64,000 nucleotides of DNA from an uncultured Candidatus Melainabacteria bacterium (GTDB lineage: Bacteria > Cyanobacteriota > Vampirovibrionia > Gastranaerophilales > Gastranaerophilaceae), in the NCBI GenBank assembly GCA_949741915.1, contig CATJOM010000078.1, positions 1-64,000 on the forward strand. The letters run 5' to 3'. Under the pieces are notes generated by a model. The model saw only the letters and a list, made by a program, of their open reading frames with translations, was not told the DNA's origin and did not search any database. The position numbers and the translations under genes are program-made. The stretch's first letter is position 1. The number at the start of each line of letters is the position of its first letter. This document shows, one piece after another, positions 6,271 to 58,391 of the stretch.

Positions 6271-6659
6271 TGCAAATCCTTCTCGCCAAGTGTTAAACGT
6301 GTGTGGTAACTTTTATGTCATCCGTCTATCAAGACAAATTTTATTGTCTATCTTACTACAATATTATAAATTAAATTTTTTAAAAAACTACAAGTTTCTA
6401 TTTTATCTTTACAATTTTGAAGAAATTGTAATAAATGTTACGATGCCGTTTACCATTTTAAACAAGGAACTATTCATTAAAGATAAATGAGACTAGTATA
6501 TGTAAATCAATGTTTGCAAAAACTTTTATAAGGCTTAGTTACTTACTTTTAAGAAACCAATGAAAATAGCTGCATTATTAAACAGGATGACTTTTTTTGC
6601 ATTTTATCAAAAAATCTAATATTATTAGAATAGTTGAATATTATGGATTTCTTAGAAGC
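6271..6659. other. 389-bp divergent intergenic region
   Basis: Separates the minus-strand MerR-like gene from the plus-strand thymidylate kinase, so both promoters must lie here. The sequence is very AT-rich. No hairpin, palindrome or convincing small gene is visible. A 66-codon open frame in it lacks a ribosome-binding site and has unremarkable composition. Confidence 0.5.
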
Positions 6660-7286
6660 ATGAAAAAAGAAAAAAGAGGATATTTTATAACTTTTGAAGG
6701 GGCAGACGGATGCGGAAAAACAACGCAGACAGAACTTATTAAAAAATATCTTGACAATAAAAATATTGAAAATATTCTAACAAGAGAGCCGGGTGGCTCA
6801 GAGCTTGGGGTGCATTTAAGAAAAATTTTATTACATTATGAAAAACCGGTTTCAAACATAGCGGAAACCTTCCTATACCTTGCAGACAGAGCCCAGCACA
6901 TTGAATATAAAATTAAACCCGCACTAGAAGAGGGGAAGATTGTTCTTTGCGACAGGCATACTGATTCAACACTGGCATATCAAGGGTATGGCAGAAATCA
7001 GGATATAGAAACGATTCAAGGGCTAAATAAAATTGCAGTAAACAGCATTTTGCCTGATTTAACCATAGTGTTTGATGTTGAATCTGAAACTGCGCAAAAG
7101 AGGCTCACAGGTGAAAAAGACAGGCTTGAAGCCGAGGGTATCGAATTTCACAAAAAATTAAGGGCAGGTTATCTTGATATAGCAAAAAAAAATCCAAAAA
7201 GAGTAAAGATAGTAAATGCAAACCAGGGTATAGAGCAGGTTTTTAATGATACCATCAAAATAATCGGGGAACTTTTAAACTTATGA
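6660..7286 (+). CDS. tmk: thymidylate kinase
   Basis: Phosphorylates dTMP to dTDP in DNA precursor synthesis. Walker A is GADGCGKTT near the N-terminus. The dTMP-binding REPGG follows, then DRHTDSTLAYQG (family DRYxDSTxAYQG, here with His for Tyr) and a LID region with KDRLEAE. Starting at the ATG at 6660 gives 208 residues, the usual family length; a TTG at 6597 would add a 21-residue extension without support. Its end overlaps the following TPR gene by 4 nt (ATGA), implying translational coupling. Two further TMK-like proteins at 44423-45760 lack REPGG, so this is the real dTMP kinase. Confidence 0.95.
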   Translation: MKKEKRGYFITFEGADGCGKTTQTELIKKYLDNKNIENILTREPGGSELGVHLRKILLHYEKPVSNIAETFLYLADRAQHIEYKIKPALEEGKIVLCDRHTDSTLAYQGYGRNQDIETIQGLNKIAVNSILPDLTIVFDVESETAQKRLTGEKDRLEAEGIEFHKKLRAGYLDIAKKNPKRVKIVNANQGIEQVFNDTIKIIGELLNL

Positions 7287-44422: not shown

Positions 44423-45085
44423 TTATTCCACAAGTCCTAAGTCAAGAACTTTTTTTACTTCCTGTTTTATTTTTTGATGAATTTCATCAATTGAAAGTTC
44501 GCCATCTATTGTTATAAAGCCGTATTCATCCTGAAGGCTGTCATATTCTTCAAGGCACCTTCCTTGATAAATTTCAAAACTCTTGTAAATATCGGTAGAA
44601 AGGCCAATATCACGGCCAGATTCAAAATAATCTAGCCCTTTTGTACCAATCATTCTTTTTAGAAGCTTATCTACTGGCATTTTAAGGTAGAATACAATAT
44701 CAGGAGTTGGTGCAAAATCATATAATTTTTTCACCCACTCAATGTCATGGCCCCTTACAGTGTCGCGCACAAATGCTGTGTATATGTATCTGTCTAAAAG
44801 TACTATAAAACCAGCCTTTAAAGCAGGAATTATAACATTTTCAAGCCTGTCGGCGTAATCTGCCGCATATAACAGGCTGAAAGTCGTTGTATTTAATAGA
44901 TTTCGCTCTTTTGCTTCGTTAATCACATCAGATATCAAACGCGATGTTTTCCACTCAGATAGCATACAGCCATAGCACTCATTTTCTATATATTTCTTAA
45001 GAAGATTTACCTGCGTTGATTTTCCAGCGCCGTCTGTTCCTTCAATAACTATTAGAAGCCCGTCATAGCCGTGTTTTTGATACAT
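44423..45085 (-). CDS. thymidylate-kinase-like protein B
   Basis: 220 residues, second of a tandem pair. P-loop VIEGTDGAGKSTQ, then LSEWKTSRLI where true dTMP kinases have REPGG, and DRYIYTAFVRDTVRG instead of DRYxxSxxAYQ. The LID region is MIGTKGLDYFESGRDIGLS. Nucleotide-kinase activity is likely but the acceptor may not be dTMP. The ATG immediately follows the TAA of the upstream paralogue (zero-base gap), so the two are translated together. Confidence 0.85.
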   Translation of the reverse strand: MYQKHGYDGLLIVIEGTDGAGKSTQVNLLKKYIENECYGCMLSEWKTSRLISDVINEAKERNLLNTTTFSLLYAADYADRLENVIIPALKAGFIVLLDRYIYTAFVRDTVRGHDIEWVKKLYDFAPTPDIVFYLKMPVDKLLKRMIGTKGLDYFESGRDIGLSTDIYKSFEIYQGRCLEEYDSLQDEYGFITIDGELSIDEIHQKIKQEVKKVLDLGLVE

Positions 45086-45760
45086 TTATATATTTATACC
45101 TTTCGATTTTAAAAGCTCAACAACCAACTGCCTGAAATACACCTGTTTTTTGTGGATTGTATCATTGGCATCCACCTTTATAAGGCCATATTCATCCACC
45201 ATATCTTTATATTGCTCTATTACCCTGTTTTGAAATAATACATAACTTTTATAGGGATTATTGGATAATTTTAAATCCATGCCAGCCTCATAATACTTCG
45301 GCTGTCGGGTAGAACAGATTCTCTCCAAAGAGACCTTTGCACTGACATCAAAATATACAGCTAAATCAGGCTTTATTGCAAAGCCATACATATTCCTTAC
45401 CCACTTTTTATCAACATCACGGGCAACATCACGGGCAAAGGCAGTATAGACATACCTGTCTGCAAGCACTATAAAACCAGCTTTCATGGCAGGAATAATA
45501 ACCTTTTCAAGCCTATCAGCAAAATCTACAGCATGAAGAAGAGAAAATGTTCTTCCCGAGAGGAGGTTTTTCTTTTTTGCTCGCTTTGTGGTTTCAGATA
45601 TCAAATCAGATGAATTCCAGCAGGTTAAAATTACATCTAAATCCTTGGTTTTTAGCCAGCTGTATAATAAATCAAGCTGCGTTGATTTACCGCTGCCATC
45701 AATTCCCTCAACACAAATGAGTACGCCTTTCAGGTCATGATTTTTATTAAATCTTAACAT
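45086..45760 (-). CDS. thymidylate-kinase-like protein A
   Basis: 224 residues, first of the pair. P-loop CVEGIDGSGKSTQ, then LTCWNSSDLI in place of REPGG, DRYVYTAFARDVARD, and ICSTRQPKYYEAGMDLKLSNNPY. It aligns along its whole length with protein B (DRLEKVIIPAMKAGFIVL versus DRLENVIIPALKAGFIVL), so the pair arose by tandem duplication. AAGG lies 6 nt before the ATG. Both differ from the true tmk at 6660-7286. Confidence 0.87.
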   Translation of the reverse strand: MLRFNKNHDLKGVLICVEGIDGSGKSTQLDLLYSWLKTKDLDVILTCWNSSDLISETTKRAKKKNLLSGRTFSLLHAVDFADRLEKVIIPAMKAGFIVLADRYVYTAFARDVARDVDKKWVRNMYGFAIKPDLAVYFDVSAKVSLERICSTRQPKYYEAGMDLKLSNNPYKSYVLFQNRVIEQYKDMVDEYGLIKVDANDTIHKKQVYFRQLVVELLKSKGINI

Positions 45761-53368: not shown

Positions 53369-54448
53369 CTACACGGTTTCAAGCGTTTTTAGTTTCCTGT
53401 ACAGCTCCAATTCATTATCTGATATGATTTTTGGAAGAACAATTAATATCTTCACATTTAAATTACCGGCACTGCCATCCTTCTTTGGAAGCCCAAGCCC
53501 CTTCAAACGAAGCATTTTGCCGCTGCTTGTTTTTTCAGGAATTGTAATGGTTACCTTGCCATCTGGCGTTTCAATCTCTTTTTTACCACCTAAAACCGCT
53601 GTCGGAGGCGTTATTTCAATAGTTTTAATTAAATCTTCGCCGTCAATTAAAAAATTTGCATCTTTAATTTTAACAGTAAGGTACAAATCTCCCTTGTTAC
53701 CATAATCATCAGCCCTGCCCTCGCCCTTAAGGCGGATTTTCTGGCCTTCCCTGACGAATTTGGGAATTTTAACAGATAAATTTTTTGAATTTTTTTCTAT
53801 GCCAGAGCCAGCGCAGTGAGAACAAAAAGAGCCTGATGAATTTCCATGGCAGTATCTGCATTTTTGATAATCAGATATTGTAATATTTTTTACACCGCCA
53901 TTAATCACATCTTTAACATTCAAAACAAGATTTTGATTTATATCAAGATTTTCCTTCTGGGCCTTATTGGGATTATCCCTTCTTTTCGAGCTACTTCTAG
54001 GGTCACTTCCGCCCATATTTGTATAAAATCCTGAGTTTCCACCAAAAATATCCTGGTTAAATCCTCTGCCATAAGAGGTTTTAGCACCGCCCGACATTAA
54101 ATCACCAAATATAGCACTAAAGAAATCAGAAAATCCGCCAGTACCACCAGAAGAACCTCTTGCGCCCTGTGCAAACTGCGAAAAATCAAATCCACCAAAG
54201 CCAGATGACGGATCAAAATCTGAACCATTCTGAAACCCTGAACCAAGCATATCATATCTTTGTCGTTTTTCTTTGTCGCCCAATACCTCATATGCTTCGT
54301 TAATGTCTTTAAATTTTTCCTCGGCACCTTTTTCTTTATTTACATCGGGATGATATTTGCGCGCAAGTTTTCTGTAAGCAGATTTTATTTCTGCTTCTTT
54401 TGCATCTCTTTTTACGCCTAAAATTTCATAATAATCTTTATATTTCAT
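53369..54448 (-). CDS. DnaJ/CbpA-like co-chaperone 2 with half zinc domain
   Basis: 359 residues. J domain [54 protein letters not shown] with the HPD. A long Gly/Phe/Ser region follows (~75-150, [21 protein letters not shown] ... [16 protein letters not shown]). Only two CxxCxG repeats are present, CRYCHGN and CSHCAGSG, where full DnaJ has four. The beta-domain end is [36 protein letters not shown]. No Shine-Dalgarno is visible; a TAATAT lies 6 nt before the ATG. Neither dnaK nor grpE is nearby. Confidence 0.9.
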
Positions 54449-54553: not shown

Positions 54554-55408
54554 TTAATGGCTCTTCTTTCTGTATCTCTTACCATCTACCTCATGCACAT
54601 TTTCTATGGCAATGAATGCAGAAGAGTCAATCTCGCTTACAATATCCTTAATCTTTGGAATCTCAATCTTTGTAATAACGCAGTACACCATCTTTGACTT
54701 TGCACCTGAATACCCACCCTCAGCACTTAGATATGTCACACTTTTATCAAGATTCTTCATTATCTCTTTGCCGATTTCTTCATACTTGGGGCTCATTATA
54801 AACACAGATTTTGCCTCATTCACGCCCTGTAAAACAAGGTCTATAGCCTTTGCAGCAATAAAATATGTAACAGCTGAATACATGGCTTTATCTACACCAT
54901 ATACGAAGCCTGCTGCAATGAATATAAAAACATTAAAAAACATTACAATTTCACCCACTGCAAAGGGATATCTTTTTGCAAGCTTTATTGCCATAATCTC
55001 TGTCCCATCAAGCGCTGCATTGCTCTTTAAAACAAAACCTACACCAATTCCAAGTATTATCCCACCAAAAACTGCTGCAATAAAAGTATCCTCTGAAAAG
55101 ACAATGCCTGTTTCAAGAAATATTTCAGAAAACAAAGACAACATGATAACACCATAAAGCATAAGGCCCACGAATGTTTTACCAAATTTCTGAAACGCCA
55201 TAACAACAAAGGGTAGGTTAAACACTATTAAAAATAATCCCAAAGGAAGCTTTGTTAAGTAATTTGCCATGATTGAGACACCTACAACCCCACCGTCAAT
55301 GACGTCTCTGGGAATTAGTACACACTCAATTGCGAATGCCGCAATGGCAGAACCTATTGTAATAAACAATAATCTTAGTAATAATATTTTTAAAAAGCCC
55401 TTAGTCAT
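54554..55408 (-). CDS. YitT-family membrane protein
   Basis: 284 residues from the ATG at 55406-55408. A longer frame upstream would overlap the divergent lipoprotein gene and reads as nonsense. Five to six membrane segments (LLLRLLFITIGSAIAAFAIECVLIP, GVSIMANYLTKLPLGLFLIVFNLPFVV, VGLMLYGVIMLSLFSEIF, IAAVFGGIILGIGVGFVLKSNAAL with DGTE) then the cytoplasmic DUF2179 domain (LSAEGGYSGAKSKMVYCVITKIEIPKIKDIV). Function unknown. Only 22 bp separate it from the divergent gene. Confidence 0.9.
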   Translation of the reverse strand: MTKGFLKILLLRLLFITIGSAIAAFAIECVLIPRDVIDGGVVGVSIMANYLTKLPLGLFLIVFNLPFVVMAFQKFGKTFVGLMLYGVIMLSLFSEIFLETGIVFSEDTFIAAVFGGIILGIGVGFVLKSNAALDGTEIMAIKLAKRYPFAVGEIVMFFNVFIFIAAGFVYGVDKAMYSAVTYFIAAKAIDLVLQGVNEAKSVFIMSPKYEEIGKEIMKNLDKSVTYLSAEGGYSGAKSKMVYCVITKIEIPKIKDIVSEIDSSAFIAIENVHEVDGKRYRKKSH

Positions 55409-55414
55409 GGTTTT

Positions 55415-55424
55415 ATGATAAAAT
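55415..55424. promoter_or_regulatory. overlapping divergent -10 boxes in a 22-bp intergenic gap
   Basis: Plus strand: TGA-TAAAAT, with TAAAAT at 55419-55424 ending 6 nt before the ATG at 55431. Minus strand: TATCAT (55415-55420) ending 6 nt before the ATG at 55408. The two hexamers share 55419-55420. Neither start has a Shine-Dalgarno. Confidence 0.65.
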
Positions 55425-55430
55425 AAAAAA

Positions 55431-56225
55431 ATGAAAAAAGTAAGTCTTTTATTATTAATAATATTTTCTGTATTTCTTTCTGGGTGCGTTAACTCAAGCA
55501 AAGAACCCAAAGATATGTTGTCCAGAATAAAGTTCAGAAACAAGATTGTGATTGGAATTAAAAAAGACTCGAAACCTTTTGGATTTACTAAAAATGGCGA
55601 GCTCGCAGGCTTTGATGTCGATGTAGCAAAGAATATAGCAAAAAGGCTTTTGGGAGATGACAATCTGACAGAGTTTGTGGATGTAACAGCTGATTCAAGA
55701 ATTAGCGATTTAAATTCAGGCAAAGTGGATATAATTATTGCCACAATGAGCATAAACGCAAAAAGGGCAGATATAATAGATTTTACGAGCCCATATTTTA
55801 TAGCAGGTCAAGCTCTTATGATACCAGAGGATTCAAAATTAAACTCCATTGAAAACCTGAATACGAGAAAAGTAGGAATAATATTAGGGTCAACAGGCGA
55901 AAAAACAATAAGGTTGCTTGCTCCAAATGCTATGGTAATAGGAAAAAGAAACTATGAAGATGTTTTCAAATTGTTAAAAGAAAATAAAGTCGATGCAATT
56001 TTAGCTGATGATACTATTTTGTATGGCTTTATTATGGATAATAAAGGCTACAAAATCCTTCCTGCAAGGTACACACGAGAATTTTATGCTATAGCCTTGA
56101 GACAGGGTGAAGAAAACAAGGAACTAAAAGAGGAATTAAACAAAATAATTAATCACATGCAGCAATCTGGAAAACTCAACAGAATAAAGGAAAAATGGAT
56201 TCCAAATTTACAGAAAACGGAATAA
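55431..56225 (+). CDS. amino-acid-type ABC transporter substrate-binding lipoprotein
   Basis: 264 residues. Lipoprotein signal VSLLLLIIFSVFLSGC (lipobox LSGC). The SBP family 3 body is DSKPFGFTKNGELAGFDVDVAKNIAKRLLG, DVDADSRISDLNSGKVDIIIATMSI (as VTADSRISDLNSGKVDIIIATMS) and RADIIDFTSPYFIAGQALMIP, with the Asp and Arg side-chain clamp typical of polar amino acids. No permease or ATPase is adjacent, so it may be a receptor or an orphan binding protein. hppA follows 51 bp later. Confidence 0.9.
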   Translation: MKKVSLLLLIIFSVFLSGCVNSSKEPKDMLSRIKFRNKIVIGIKKDSKPFGFTKNGELAGFDVDVAKNIAKRLLGDDNLTEFVDVTADSRISDLNSGKVDIIIATMSINAKRADIIDFTSPYFIAGQALMIPEDSKLNSIENLNTRKVGIILGSTGEKTIRLLAPNAMVIGKRNYEDVFKLLKENKVDAILADDTILYGFIMDNKGYKILPARYTREFYAIALRQGEENKELKEELNKIINHMQQSGKLNRIKEKWIPNLQKTE

Positions 56226-56276
56226 TGTGTTATAATTTCGCTTGAAATGATGGGTAAAAATAGATAAGGAATTCAA

Positions 56277-58391
56277 ATGAAAAATAAAAGACACATTTTT
56301 TGGGAAGTGTTATTCTGGATAGTTCTTCTTGCCGGAATTTATATGTCATTCGGTGTTTATTTAAAAGATGCAAAGTCAATATTTATAGGAATAATAGCAG
56401 GCGTGACTGCCCTTTTGTTTGCAGCAATTAAAACTGCCAAAATAATGTCGCACGATAGAGGTACAGATGCTATGAGCTCTATCTCCAACAATATATATGC
56501 TGGCGCCATGGCATTTCTTAAAAGAGAGTATTCAATTCTTGCTGTTTTTGTTGTAATAATTGCAGGCCTTATAGCATATTTTCTTAAGCCCGAAACCGCC
56601 ATATGTTTTCTGTGTGGCGCAGCGTGCTCTGCACTTGCAGGATATATAGGCATGACAGTTTCAACAAAATCAAATACAAGAACAGCACATGCAGCCGAAA
56701 GCTCATTGAATAAAGCATTCAGGATAGCCTTCTCGGGTGGCGTTGTAATGGGAATGACGGTTGCAGGTTTAGGACTTTTAGGCTTAACTATTCTTTATTA
56801 TATATTTAAAGACCATGAAATTATAAATGGATTTGCTCTGGGTGCAAGCTCTATAGCGCTATTTGCACGTGTTGGTGGAGGCATTTTTACAAAGGCGGCC
56901 GACGTAGGCGCAGATTTAGTGGGAAAGGTTGAAGCTGGAATTCCAGAAGATGATCATAGAAACCCGGCTGTTATTGCTGACAATGTTGGGGATAACGTTG
57001 GAGATGTTGCAGGAATGGGCGCCGACCTTTTTGAATCATATGTAGGCTCAATCATAGCTGCAATTACACTAGGTGCAATTTGTTTAAACCTAATGGGAGC
57101 TTTTCTTCCAATAGTAATCTCTGGACTTGGAATTTTTGCTTCAATTATTGCGGTTTATTTTGTTAGAACCAAAGAAAACGGAGACCCAATGAAATCATTG
57201 CAGATAGGTACATCTGCTGCGATGCTTATGGTAATTGCAGGCTCATACTTTGTTATTACAAACTGGATTCCAAAGCAAAACGGCGGACTCGGCATATTCT
57301 TTGCACTTCTAATAGGTATCGCTGCAGGAACGTTGATTGGGTATCTGACAGAATACTTCACTTCCTATAACTTTAACCCTGTTAAAAGAATAGCAAAATC
57401 GACACAAACAGGTACAGCTACAACCGTTATTTCTGGTCTTGATATTGGAATGTTATCAACATTTTTCCCAATGGTGATTATAAGTATCGCAACAATTGCG
57501 GCATTTCTTGTTATAGGTGGAATGAATAATTATACTCTTGGCGTATACGGAATAAGTATCGCTGCTGTAGGAATGCTGTCTACTGTTGGAATAATTGTGG
57601 CGGTTGATGCTTATGGCCCCATCTCGGATAATGCAGGCGGAATAGCACAAATGGCAGACCTTGACAAGACTGTTAGGGAAAGGACTGATAAGCTTGATTC
57701 TGTTGGAAACACAACAGCGGCAATTGGTAAAGGCTTTGCGATAGGTTCTGCGGCACTGACAGCGCTAGCCCTTTTGTGTGCCTATGCAACAGTTATTGAC
57801 CTTGAAAATATTGATATATTAAATCCATTTGTAACATCTGGCGTATTGCTGGGTGCATCGCTACCGTTTCTATTCTGCTCATTAACTATGGGGGCGGTTG
57901 GCCGTGCAGCAGAAAAGATGGTGAACGAAGTTAGGAGACAATTTAAAGAAAATCCTGGCATTATGACCCACCAAGTCCAGCCTGATTACAAAAAATGTGT
58001 TGACATTTCAACAAAAGCAGCAATTCTTGAAATGCTTCTACCTGGAATTATCGCAATTGGCGCCCCAATTCTTGTTGGAGTTGGCATCAGCCTTTTGACA
58101 GGAGAAAAAACTCTTGGTGCCCAGGCGCTTGGCGGCTTACTAATGGGGGCAATAACAACCGGCGTTTGCCTTGCTATTATGATGGCAAATACAGGAGGCG
58201 CCTGGGATAATGCTAAAAAATATATTGAGGAAGGAAATTTTGGCGGAAAAGGTTCAGCCCAGCATGCAGCAAGCGTGGTAGGCGATACCATAGGAGATCC
58301 ATTCAAAGATACATCTGGTCCATCCTTAAATATATTAATAAAACTTATGACCATAGTATCATTAGTCTGTGCGACATTGTTTATTGCCTAA
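56277..58391 (+). CDS. hppA: membrane-bound ion-pumping pyrophosphatase
   Basis: 704 residues, about 16 membrane helices. Hydrolyses PPi to pump H+ or Na+. The substrate block DVGADLVGKVEAGIPEDDHRNPAVIADNVGDNVGD is near residues 206-240, with a second acidic loop at DAYGPISDNAGGIAQMA and DTIGDPFKDTSGPSLNILIK at the end. GNTTAAIGKG has Ala at the position that is Lys in K+-independent enzymes, so a K+-dependent type is expected. H+ versus Na+ specificity is not decided. AAGGA precedes the ATG; TATAAT lies upstream near 56230. Confidence 0.96.
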   Translation: MKNKRHIFWEVLFWIVLLAGIYMSFGVYLKDAKSIFIGIIAGVTALLFAAIKTAKIMSHDRGTDAMSSISNNIYAGAMAFLKREYSILAVFVVIIAGLIAYFLKPETAICFLCGAACSALAGYIGMTVSTKSNTRTAHAAESSLNKAFRIAFSGGVVMGMTVAGLGLLGLTILYYIFKDHEIINGFALGASSIALFARVGGGIFTKAADVGADLVGKVEAGIPEDDHRNPAVIADNVGDNVGDVAGMGADLFESYVGSIIAAITLGAICLNLMGAFLPIVISGLGIFASIIAVYFVRTKENGDPMKSLQIGTSAAMLMVIAGSYFVITNWIPKQNGGLGIFFALLIGIAAGTLIGYLTEYFTSYNFNPVKRIAKSTQTGTATTVISGLDIGMLSTFFPMVIISIATIAAFLVIGGMNNYTLGVYGISIAAVGMLSTVGIIVAVDAYGPISDNAGGIAQMADLDKTVRERTDKLDSVGNTTAAIGKGFAIGSAALTALALLCAYATVIDLENIDILNPFVTSGVLLGASLPFLFCSLTMGAVGRAAEKMVNEVRRQFKENPGIMTHQVQPDYKKCVDISTKAAILEMLLPGIIAIGAPILVGVGISLLTGEKTLGAQALGGLLMGAITTGVCLAIMMANTGGAWDNAKKYIEEGNFGGKGSAQHAASVVGDTIGDPFKDTSGPSLNILIKLMTIVSLVCATLFIA

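Follow-up and report, generated by a model that had tools for sequence, protein, structure and literature searches.

The 22 bp between the divergent start codons of a yitT homologue and an amino-acid-binding lipoprotein gene, in a gut bacterium of the uncultured order Gastranaerophilales, most probably form a single bidirectional core promoter of the -10-symmetry kind described by Warman and Grainger, with both transcripts leaderless. We assign this reading a probability of about 0.8. The locus lies in a stretch of 64,000 nucleotides that was analysed as a whole and is called the window here. Its assignment to the order agrees with the closest named YitT relatives, which bear the name Candidatus Gastranaerophilales. 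A first-pass annotation had placed the two start codons 22 bp apart with overlapping -10 boxes between them, and its coordinates and geometry proved right: positions 55406-55433 read CAT GGTTTTATGATAAAATAAAAAA ATG, which leaves a gap of exactly 22 bp, and the boxes TATCAT (minus) and TAAAAT (plus) share T55419 and A55420. The features of the locus are as follows.

54554 to 55408, minus strand: yitT homologue, 284 aa, ATG at 55408, with YitT_membrane (PF02588) and DUF2179 (PF10035)
55431 to 56225, plus strand: family-3 solute-binding (amino-acid-binding) lipoprotein gene, 264 aa, ATG at 55431, with SBP_bac_3 (PF00497) and lipobox LSGC
55409 to 55430: intergenic gap, 22 bp, GGTTTTATGATAAAATAAAAAA, with both putative core promoters inside
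55419 to 55424, plus strand: putative lipoprotein -10 box TAAAAT, ending 6 nt before the ATG; TAnnAT lies at exactly 6 nt in 11/11 genomes
55416 to 55418, plus strand: TGn extended -10 element of the putative lipoprotein promoter (TGA here); TG is invariant in 11/11 junctions
55415 to 55420, minus strand: putative yitT -10 box TATCAT, ending 6 nt before the ATG; TAnCAT lies at 6-8 nt in 11/11 genomes
55419 to 55420: TA common to both -10 boxes, at positions -12/-11 of each promoter, invariant in 11 genomes
55431, plus strand: predicted lipoprotein transcription start site (TSS), the first base of the ATG, from the -10 spacing (7 bp)
55408, minus strand: predicted yitT TSS, the first base of the ATG, from the -10 spacing (7 bp), 23 bp from the predicted lipoprotein TSS

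The annotation had named transcription starts inside either gene, with real start codons further downstream, as an outcome that would undo its reading. The lipoprotein start at 55431 is forced, because an in-frame TAA (55419-55421) lies just 5' of it and the signal peptide and pre-lipobox region contain no other start codon; the same TAA rules out a start further upstream. The yitT ATG at 55408 is backed by the N-termini of orthologues and by a Pfam YitT_membrane match that starts at residue 13. A Shine-Dalgarno (SD) sequence was sought ahead of both genes and is absent on both sides.

With 6 nt between each -10 box and its start codon, transcription is predicted to begin on the A of the ATG in both directions. 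The ten-base core ATGATAAAAT would hold one -10 element per strand, TGn plus TAAAAT for the lipoprotein gene and TATCAT for yitT, overlapping by TA. RNA polymerase would melt this shared core in either orientation and begin on the A of the start codon each way, so that both mRNAs would be leaderless and their 5' AUG translated without an SD sequence. The core would hold one polymerase at a time, which would make initiation in the two directions mutually exclusive for each event. Twenty-two base pairs carrying every predicted initiation signal for two genes may approach the smallest possible divergent control region.

The conserved TG, a feature absent from the first-pass annotation, turns the lipoprotein side into an extended -10. 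Read on the other strand, an extended -10 of the form TATGnTA is TAnCATA, and such an element would therefore come with an opposing -10 already in place at the offset seen here. The annotation had also placed each -35 inside the opposite gene, which is geometrically right, although neither hexamer at a 17-bp spacer (AGCCCT for the lipoprotein gene, TTACTT for yitT) is recognisable as a -35 element. A plain sigma-70 consensus promoter scan of the region gave 13 sites where 13.0 were expected; with no excess, motif matching alone proves nothing here, and conservation and genome statistics are the informative evidence. The best match in the scanned region is a near-consensus extended promoter at 56207-56236 (plus strand; TTTACA-18-TATAAT with TG before the -10), which overlaps the end of the lipoprotein gene; an SD-led gene for a membrane pyrophosphatase (ATG at 56277) follows it at a distance of about 34 nt.

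Eleven distinct Gastranaerophilales genomes carry the divergent pair, with YitT identity as low as 53% (L343 and G001 are one contig and were counted once). Conservation of the 22-bp gap in relatives, proposed as a check in the annotation, holds with a small tolerance: the gap is 22 bp in four genomes, 23 bp in six and 24 bp in one, and TTATGnTAnnATnAA is invariant. When the 11 gaps are aligned, every contact position of TTATGnTAnnATnAA is unchanged, in contrast to the n positions of the -10 elements, which differ freely among genomes. Counted from the lipoprotein ATG, the invariant bases are -18 T, -17 T, -16 A, -15 T, -14 G, -12 T, -11 A, -8 A, -7 T, -5 A and -4 A, and positions -13, -10 and -9 are free. 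As read from this alignment, the conservation of the gap is the contact pattern of a putative extended -10 (TGnTAnnAT) on one strand and of TAnCAT on the other. The distance from -10 box to ATG is fixed on the lipoprotein side, at 6 nt in every genome, and ranges over 6-8 nt on the yitT side. Between this genome and its sister G001, 21 of the 22 gap positions are identical, compared with 42% and 44% at the fourfold sites of the two genes (p ~2e-7). The five paired genomes included in a tree of YitT from 30 relatives group as a single clade with 98/97 support.

Conservation of this kind could also mark a transcription-factor operator, with the -10-like matches incidental to A+T-rich DNA. The sequence is indeed short and AT-rich, and the consensus scan found no promoter excess, yet variation falls precisely where an extended -10 makes no contact, and unrelated gene pairs have this core at the same distance from their ATGs, as described below. 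We regard an operator as the main function of the core as very improbable.

That both the yitT and the lipoprotein mRNAs are leaderless, as predicted for a bidirectional core promoter at this position, is well supported by the combination of a genome-wide 6-nt peak of -10 motifs in genes that lack an SD sequence, the conservation in 11 genomes and the leaderless yitT orthologues found elsewhere. The leaderless statistics come from about 790 kb of stretches of this genome. Among the 262 non-SD genes of that sample, 39 carry TANNNT at a distance of exactly 6 nt from the chosen ATG and 23 at 7 nt, compared with a mean of 11.4 for offsets 10-44. The yitT/lipoprotein pair stands outside the count of 39: the yitT frame runs open through the lipoprotein gene, whose called start moved upstream, and automatic gene calling therefore discarded it. 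Both genes show TANNNT at the 6-nt spacing and no SD sequence. TGn, which was not a selection criterion, stands at -15/-14 in 14 of the 39 leaderless candidates, where about two would be expected from base composition. An SD-like motif precedes about half of the genes in the sample, and the genome thus mixes SD-led and leaderless modes. Near the locus, a dnaJ-like gene at 54448 (minus strand) lacks an SD sequence and has TAATAT at a distance of six bases from its ATG, which makes it another leaderless candidate. The first-pass annotation had held that both mRNAs must be leaderless; the sequence favours leaderless transcripts, but "must" is slightly too strong, because a promoter inside the neighbouring gene is conceivable, and because an alternative lipoprotein -10, TATGAT (55414-55419), lies 5 nt further upstream, the use of which would leave a leader of roughly 5 nt.

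The two boxes do not have equal standing. The yitT box is the less independently supported, and the case for it leans more on the behaviour of orthologues, because TAnCATA automatically complements the lipoprotein TATGnTA and because the yitT spacing drifts between 6 and 8 nt. These same two facts are what would be expected if only the lipoprotein promoter (the extended -10, TATGnTAnnAT) were real and the yitT -10 its accidental complement, the true yitT promoter then lying within the lipoprotein gene and the yitT mRNA having a non-SD leader. The relatives argue otherwise: many yitT genes without a lipoprotein neighbour appear leaderless, with a box at 6-7 nt and unrelated sequence upstream of it. 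Moreover, the A at -16, which is T-7 of the yitT box, is invariant in 11/11 junctions, whereas the leaderless candidates of this genome have A in 19 and G in 13 of 39 cases, and the length of the gap stays at 22-24 bp. A lipoprotein promoter acting alone is accordingly quite unlikely, and a promoter for each gene within the gap remains the preferred reading.

More generally, yitT orthologues often appear leaderless if they are first in a transcript and are usually SD-led if they follow tightly behind a gene on the same strand. Lipoprotein orthologues that are not paired with yitT are mostly SD-led in the relatives. A simple history would have the lipoprotein gene come to lie beside a yitT promoter that was already leaderless. 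In more distant Gastranaerophilales (L350, L351, L352, L369), yitT has a TATAAT-like box and a short leader with an SD-like purine run, and the leaderless state thus changes within the yitT family.

The layout is not confined to this pair. Across 59 relatives, CAT-N6-ATnnTAnnAT-N6-ATG occurs at about 55-60 sites, compared with about 25 when the spacers are N10 and 9 when they are N3. When both ATGs were required to open ORFs of at least 60 codons, 26 of 117 sites with CAT-N6/7-ATnnTAnnAT-N6/7-ATG qualified, against 0 of 32 spacing controls; the p value of 9e-4 is indicative only, because four of the 26 double pairs are yitT pairs and further ones are orthologous to one another, so that not all are independent. 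Of these 26, 16 have TGn on one strand or both, compared with 8 of 33 sites without an ORF. Chance in A+T-rich DNA was weighed as a source of the layout and is rejected by the conservation, the spacing controls and the ORF test. A looser pattern, CAT-N6-AnnnTAnnnT-N6-ATG, gave 7 sites in this genome and 6 in a reversed control and is therefore not informative alone. The 18-bp TSS geometry, the commonest at E. coli bidirectional promoters, gave about 60 sites for doubly leaderless pairs with about 60 in the spacing control, and 0 of 30 had ORFs on both sides. Further pairs with the layout are listed here.

C20:5764-5792 in this genome: ligA / Orn-Lys-Arg decarboxylase pair, in three genomes including this one (the others are G022 and G027)
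Same layout: GIY-YIG / YhcH pair, in three genomes
Same layout: tilS / small protein pair, in two genomes
Same layout: dnaX / LD-carboxypeptidase pair

The first of these, between an NAD-dependent DNA ligase and an Orn/Lys/Arg decarboxylase, gives this genome a second doubly leaderless candidate pair. A bolder reading would be a Gastranaerophilales promoter class in which one ten-base core ATnnTAnnAT, 6-8 bases from two opposed start codons, would set the start of transcription and of translation for two genes with a nearly fixed TSS spacing of 23-25 bp, the choice of orientation coupling the genes inversely. We think this proposal doubtful.

The bearing of the geometry on regulation is a separate matter. 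Mutual exclusion at the level of the polymerase, as claimed in the first-pass annotation, would follow from the geometry, and simultaneous binding of opposed polymerases is stated to be sterically prevented at bidirectional promoters generally (PMC12825309). The annotation went further and called the gap a compact switch, and this description finds no support. A dedicated switch would use polymerase exclusion to express YitT and the binding protein inversely upon a signal; overlapping -10 elements that cannot be occupied together would suit such a role, and so would the finding for bidirectional promoters of E. coli that an activator of one direction tends to repress the opposite one (PMC12825309). 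However, the same geometry is found at unrelated housekeeping pairs (ligA/decarboxylase, tilS/small protein, dnaX/LD-carboxypeptidase), neither a regulator gene nor an extra operator was seen in the gap, and the bidirectional promoters that have been tested show low basal activity and little competition, although activated promoters do interfere (PMC12825309). A dedicated switch is therefore unlikely, and a regulatory role for polymerase exclusion is possible but unproven. The layout is real and recurs in the order, but it resembles a compact version of a promoter type already described, and its use as a switch is unproven. About two dozen candidate sites now offer a way to ask whether the exclusion of one polymerase by another at overlapping -10 boxes has regulatory consequences.

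Comparison with known systems places the gap at the meeting point of two phenomena that have been studied separately, -10-symmetry bidirectional promoters and leaderless translation. It shares with the former (PMC12825309, PMC10268837) the -10 elements overlapping on opposite strands, here conserved in 11 genomes, and the expected polymerase exclusion. Its TSS spacing of 23 bp, as predicted from the -10 positions, would fall within the 7-25 bp range of divergent TSSs in this class and match one of the spacings that, with 10 bp, are also common in E. coli after 18 bp (PMC12825309). It differs in that both predicted TSSs are start codons, and the word "leaderless" is absent from the two texts searched on these promoters (PMC12825309, PMC10268837). 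TA-led leaderless genes have TANNNT some 12 bp ahead of the start codon (Zheng et al. 2011, PMC3160421; Deinococcus -10-motif genes, PMC12340547) and are reported to be abundant in Actinobacteria and Deinococcus-Thermus; a distance of about 10-12 bp, the range used here to recognise the class, covers both genes of the pair. They resemble the genes described here in having TANNNT immediately before the ATG, no SD sequence and, as predicted here, no leader. Unlike the present divergent pair they are reported as single genes, and the searched texts (PMC3160421, PMC12340547) make no mention of divergent or bidirectional use. The M. tuberculosis lysG/lysE pair (PMC5648196) is likewise divergent, with overlapping -10/-35 elements and one leaderless transcript; it differs in its 108-bp intergenic region, LysR-type regulator and inverted repeat, and its leaderless transcript arises at a second promoter that is distinct from the overlapping ones. 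The open-access literature searched yielded no account of bacterial bidirectional promoters with both transcripts leaderless, which is a weak indication that the arrangement is new, and none of leaderless genes in Gastranaerophilales, for which the present analysis provides a sequence-level case. Elsewhere in the window, two adjacent thymidylate-kinase-like ORFs lie in tandem at 44423-45760 (minus strand), with a third at 6597-7286.
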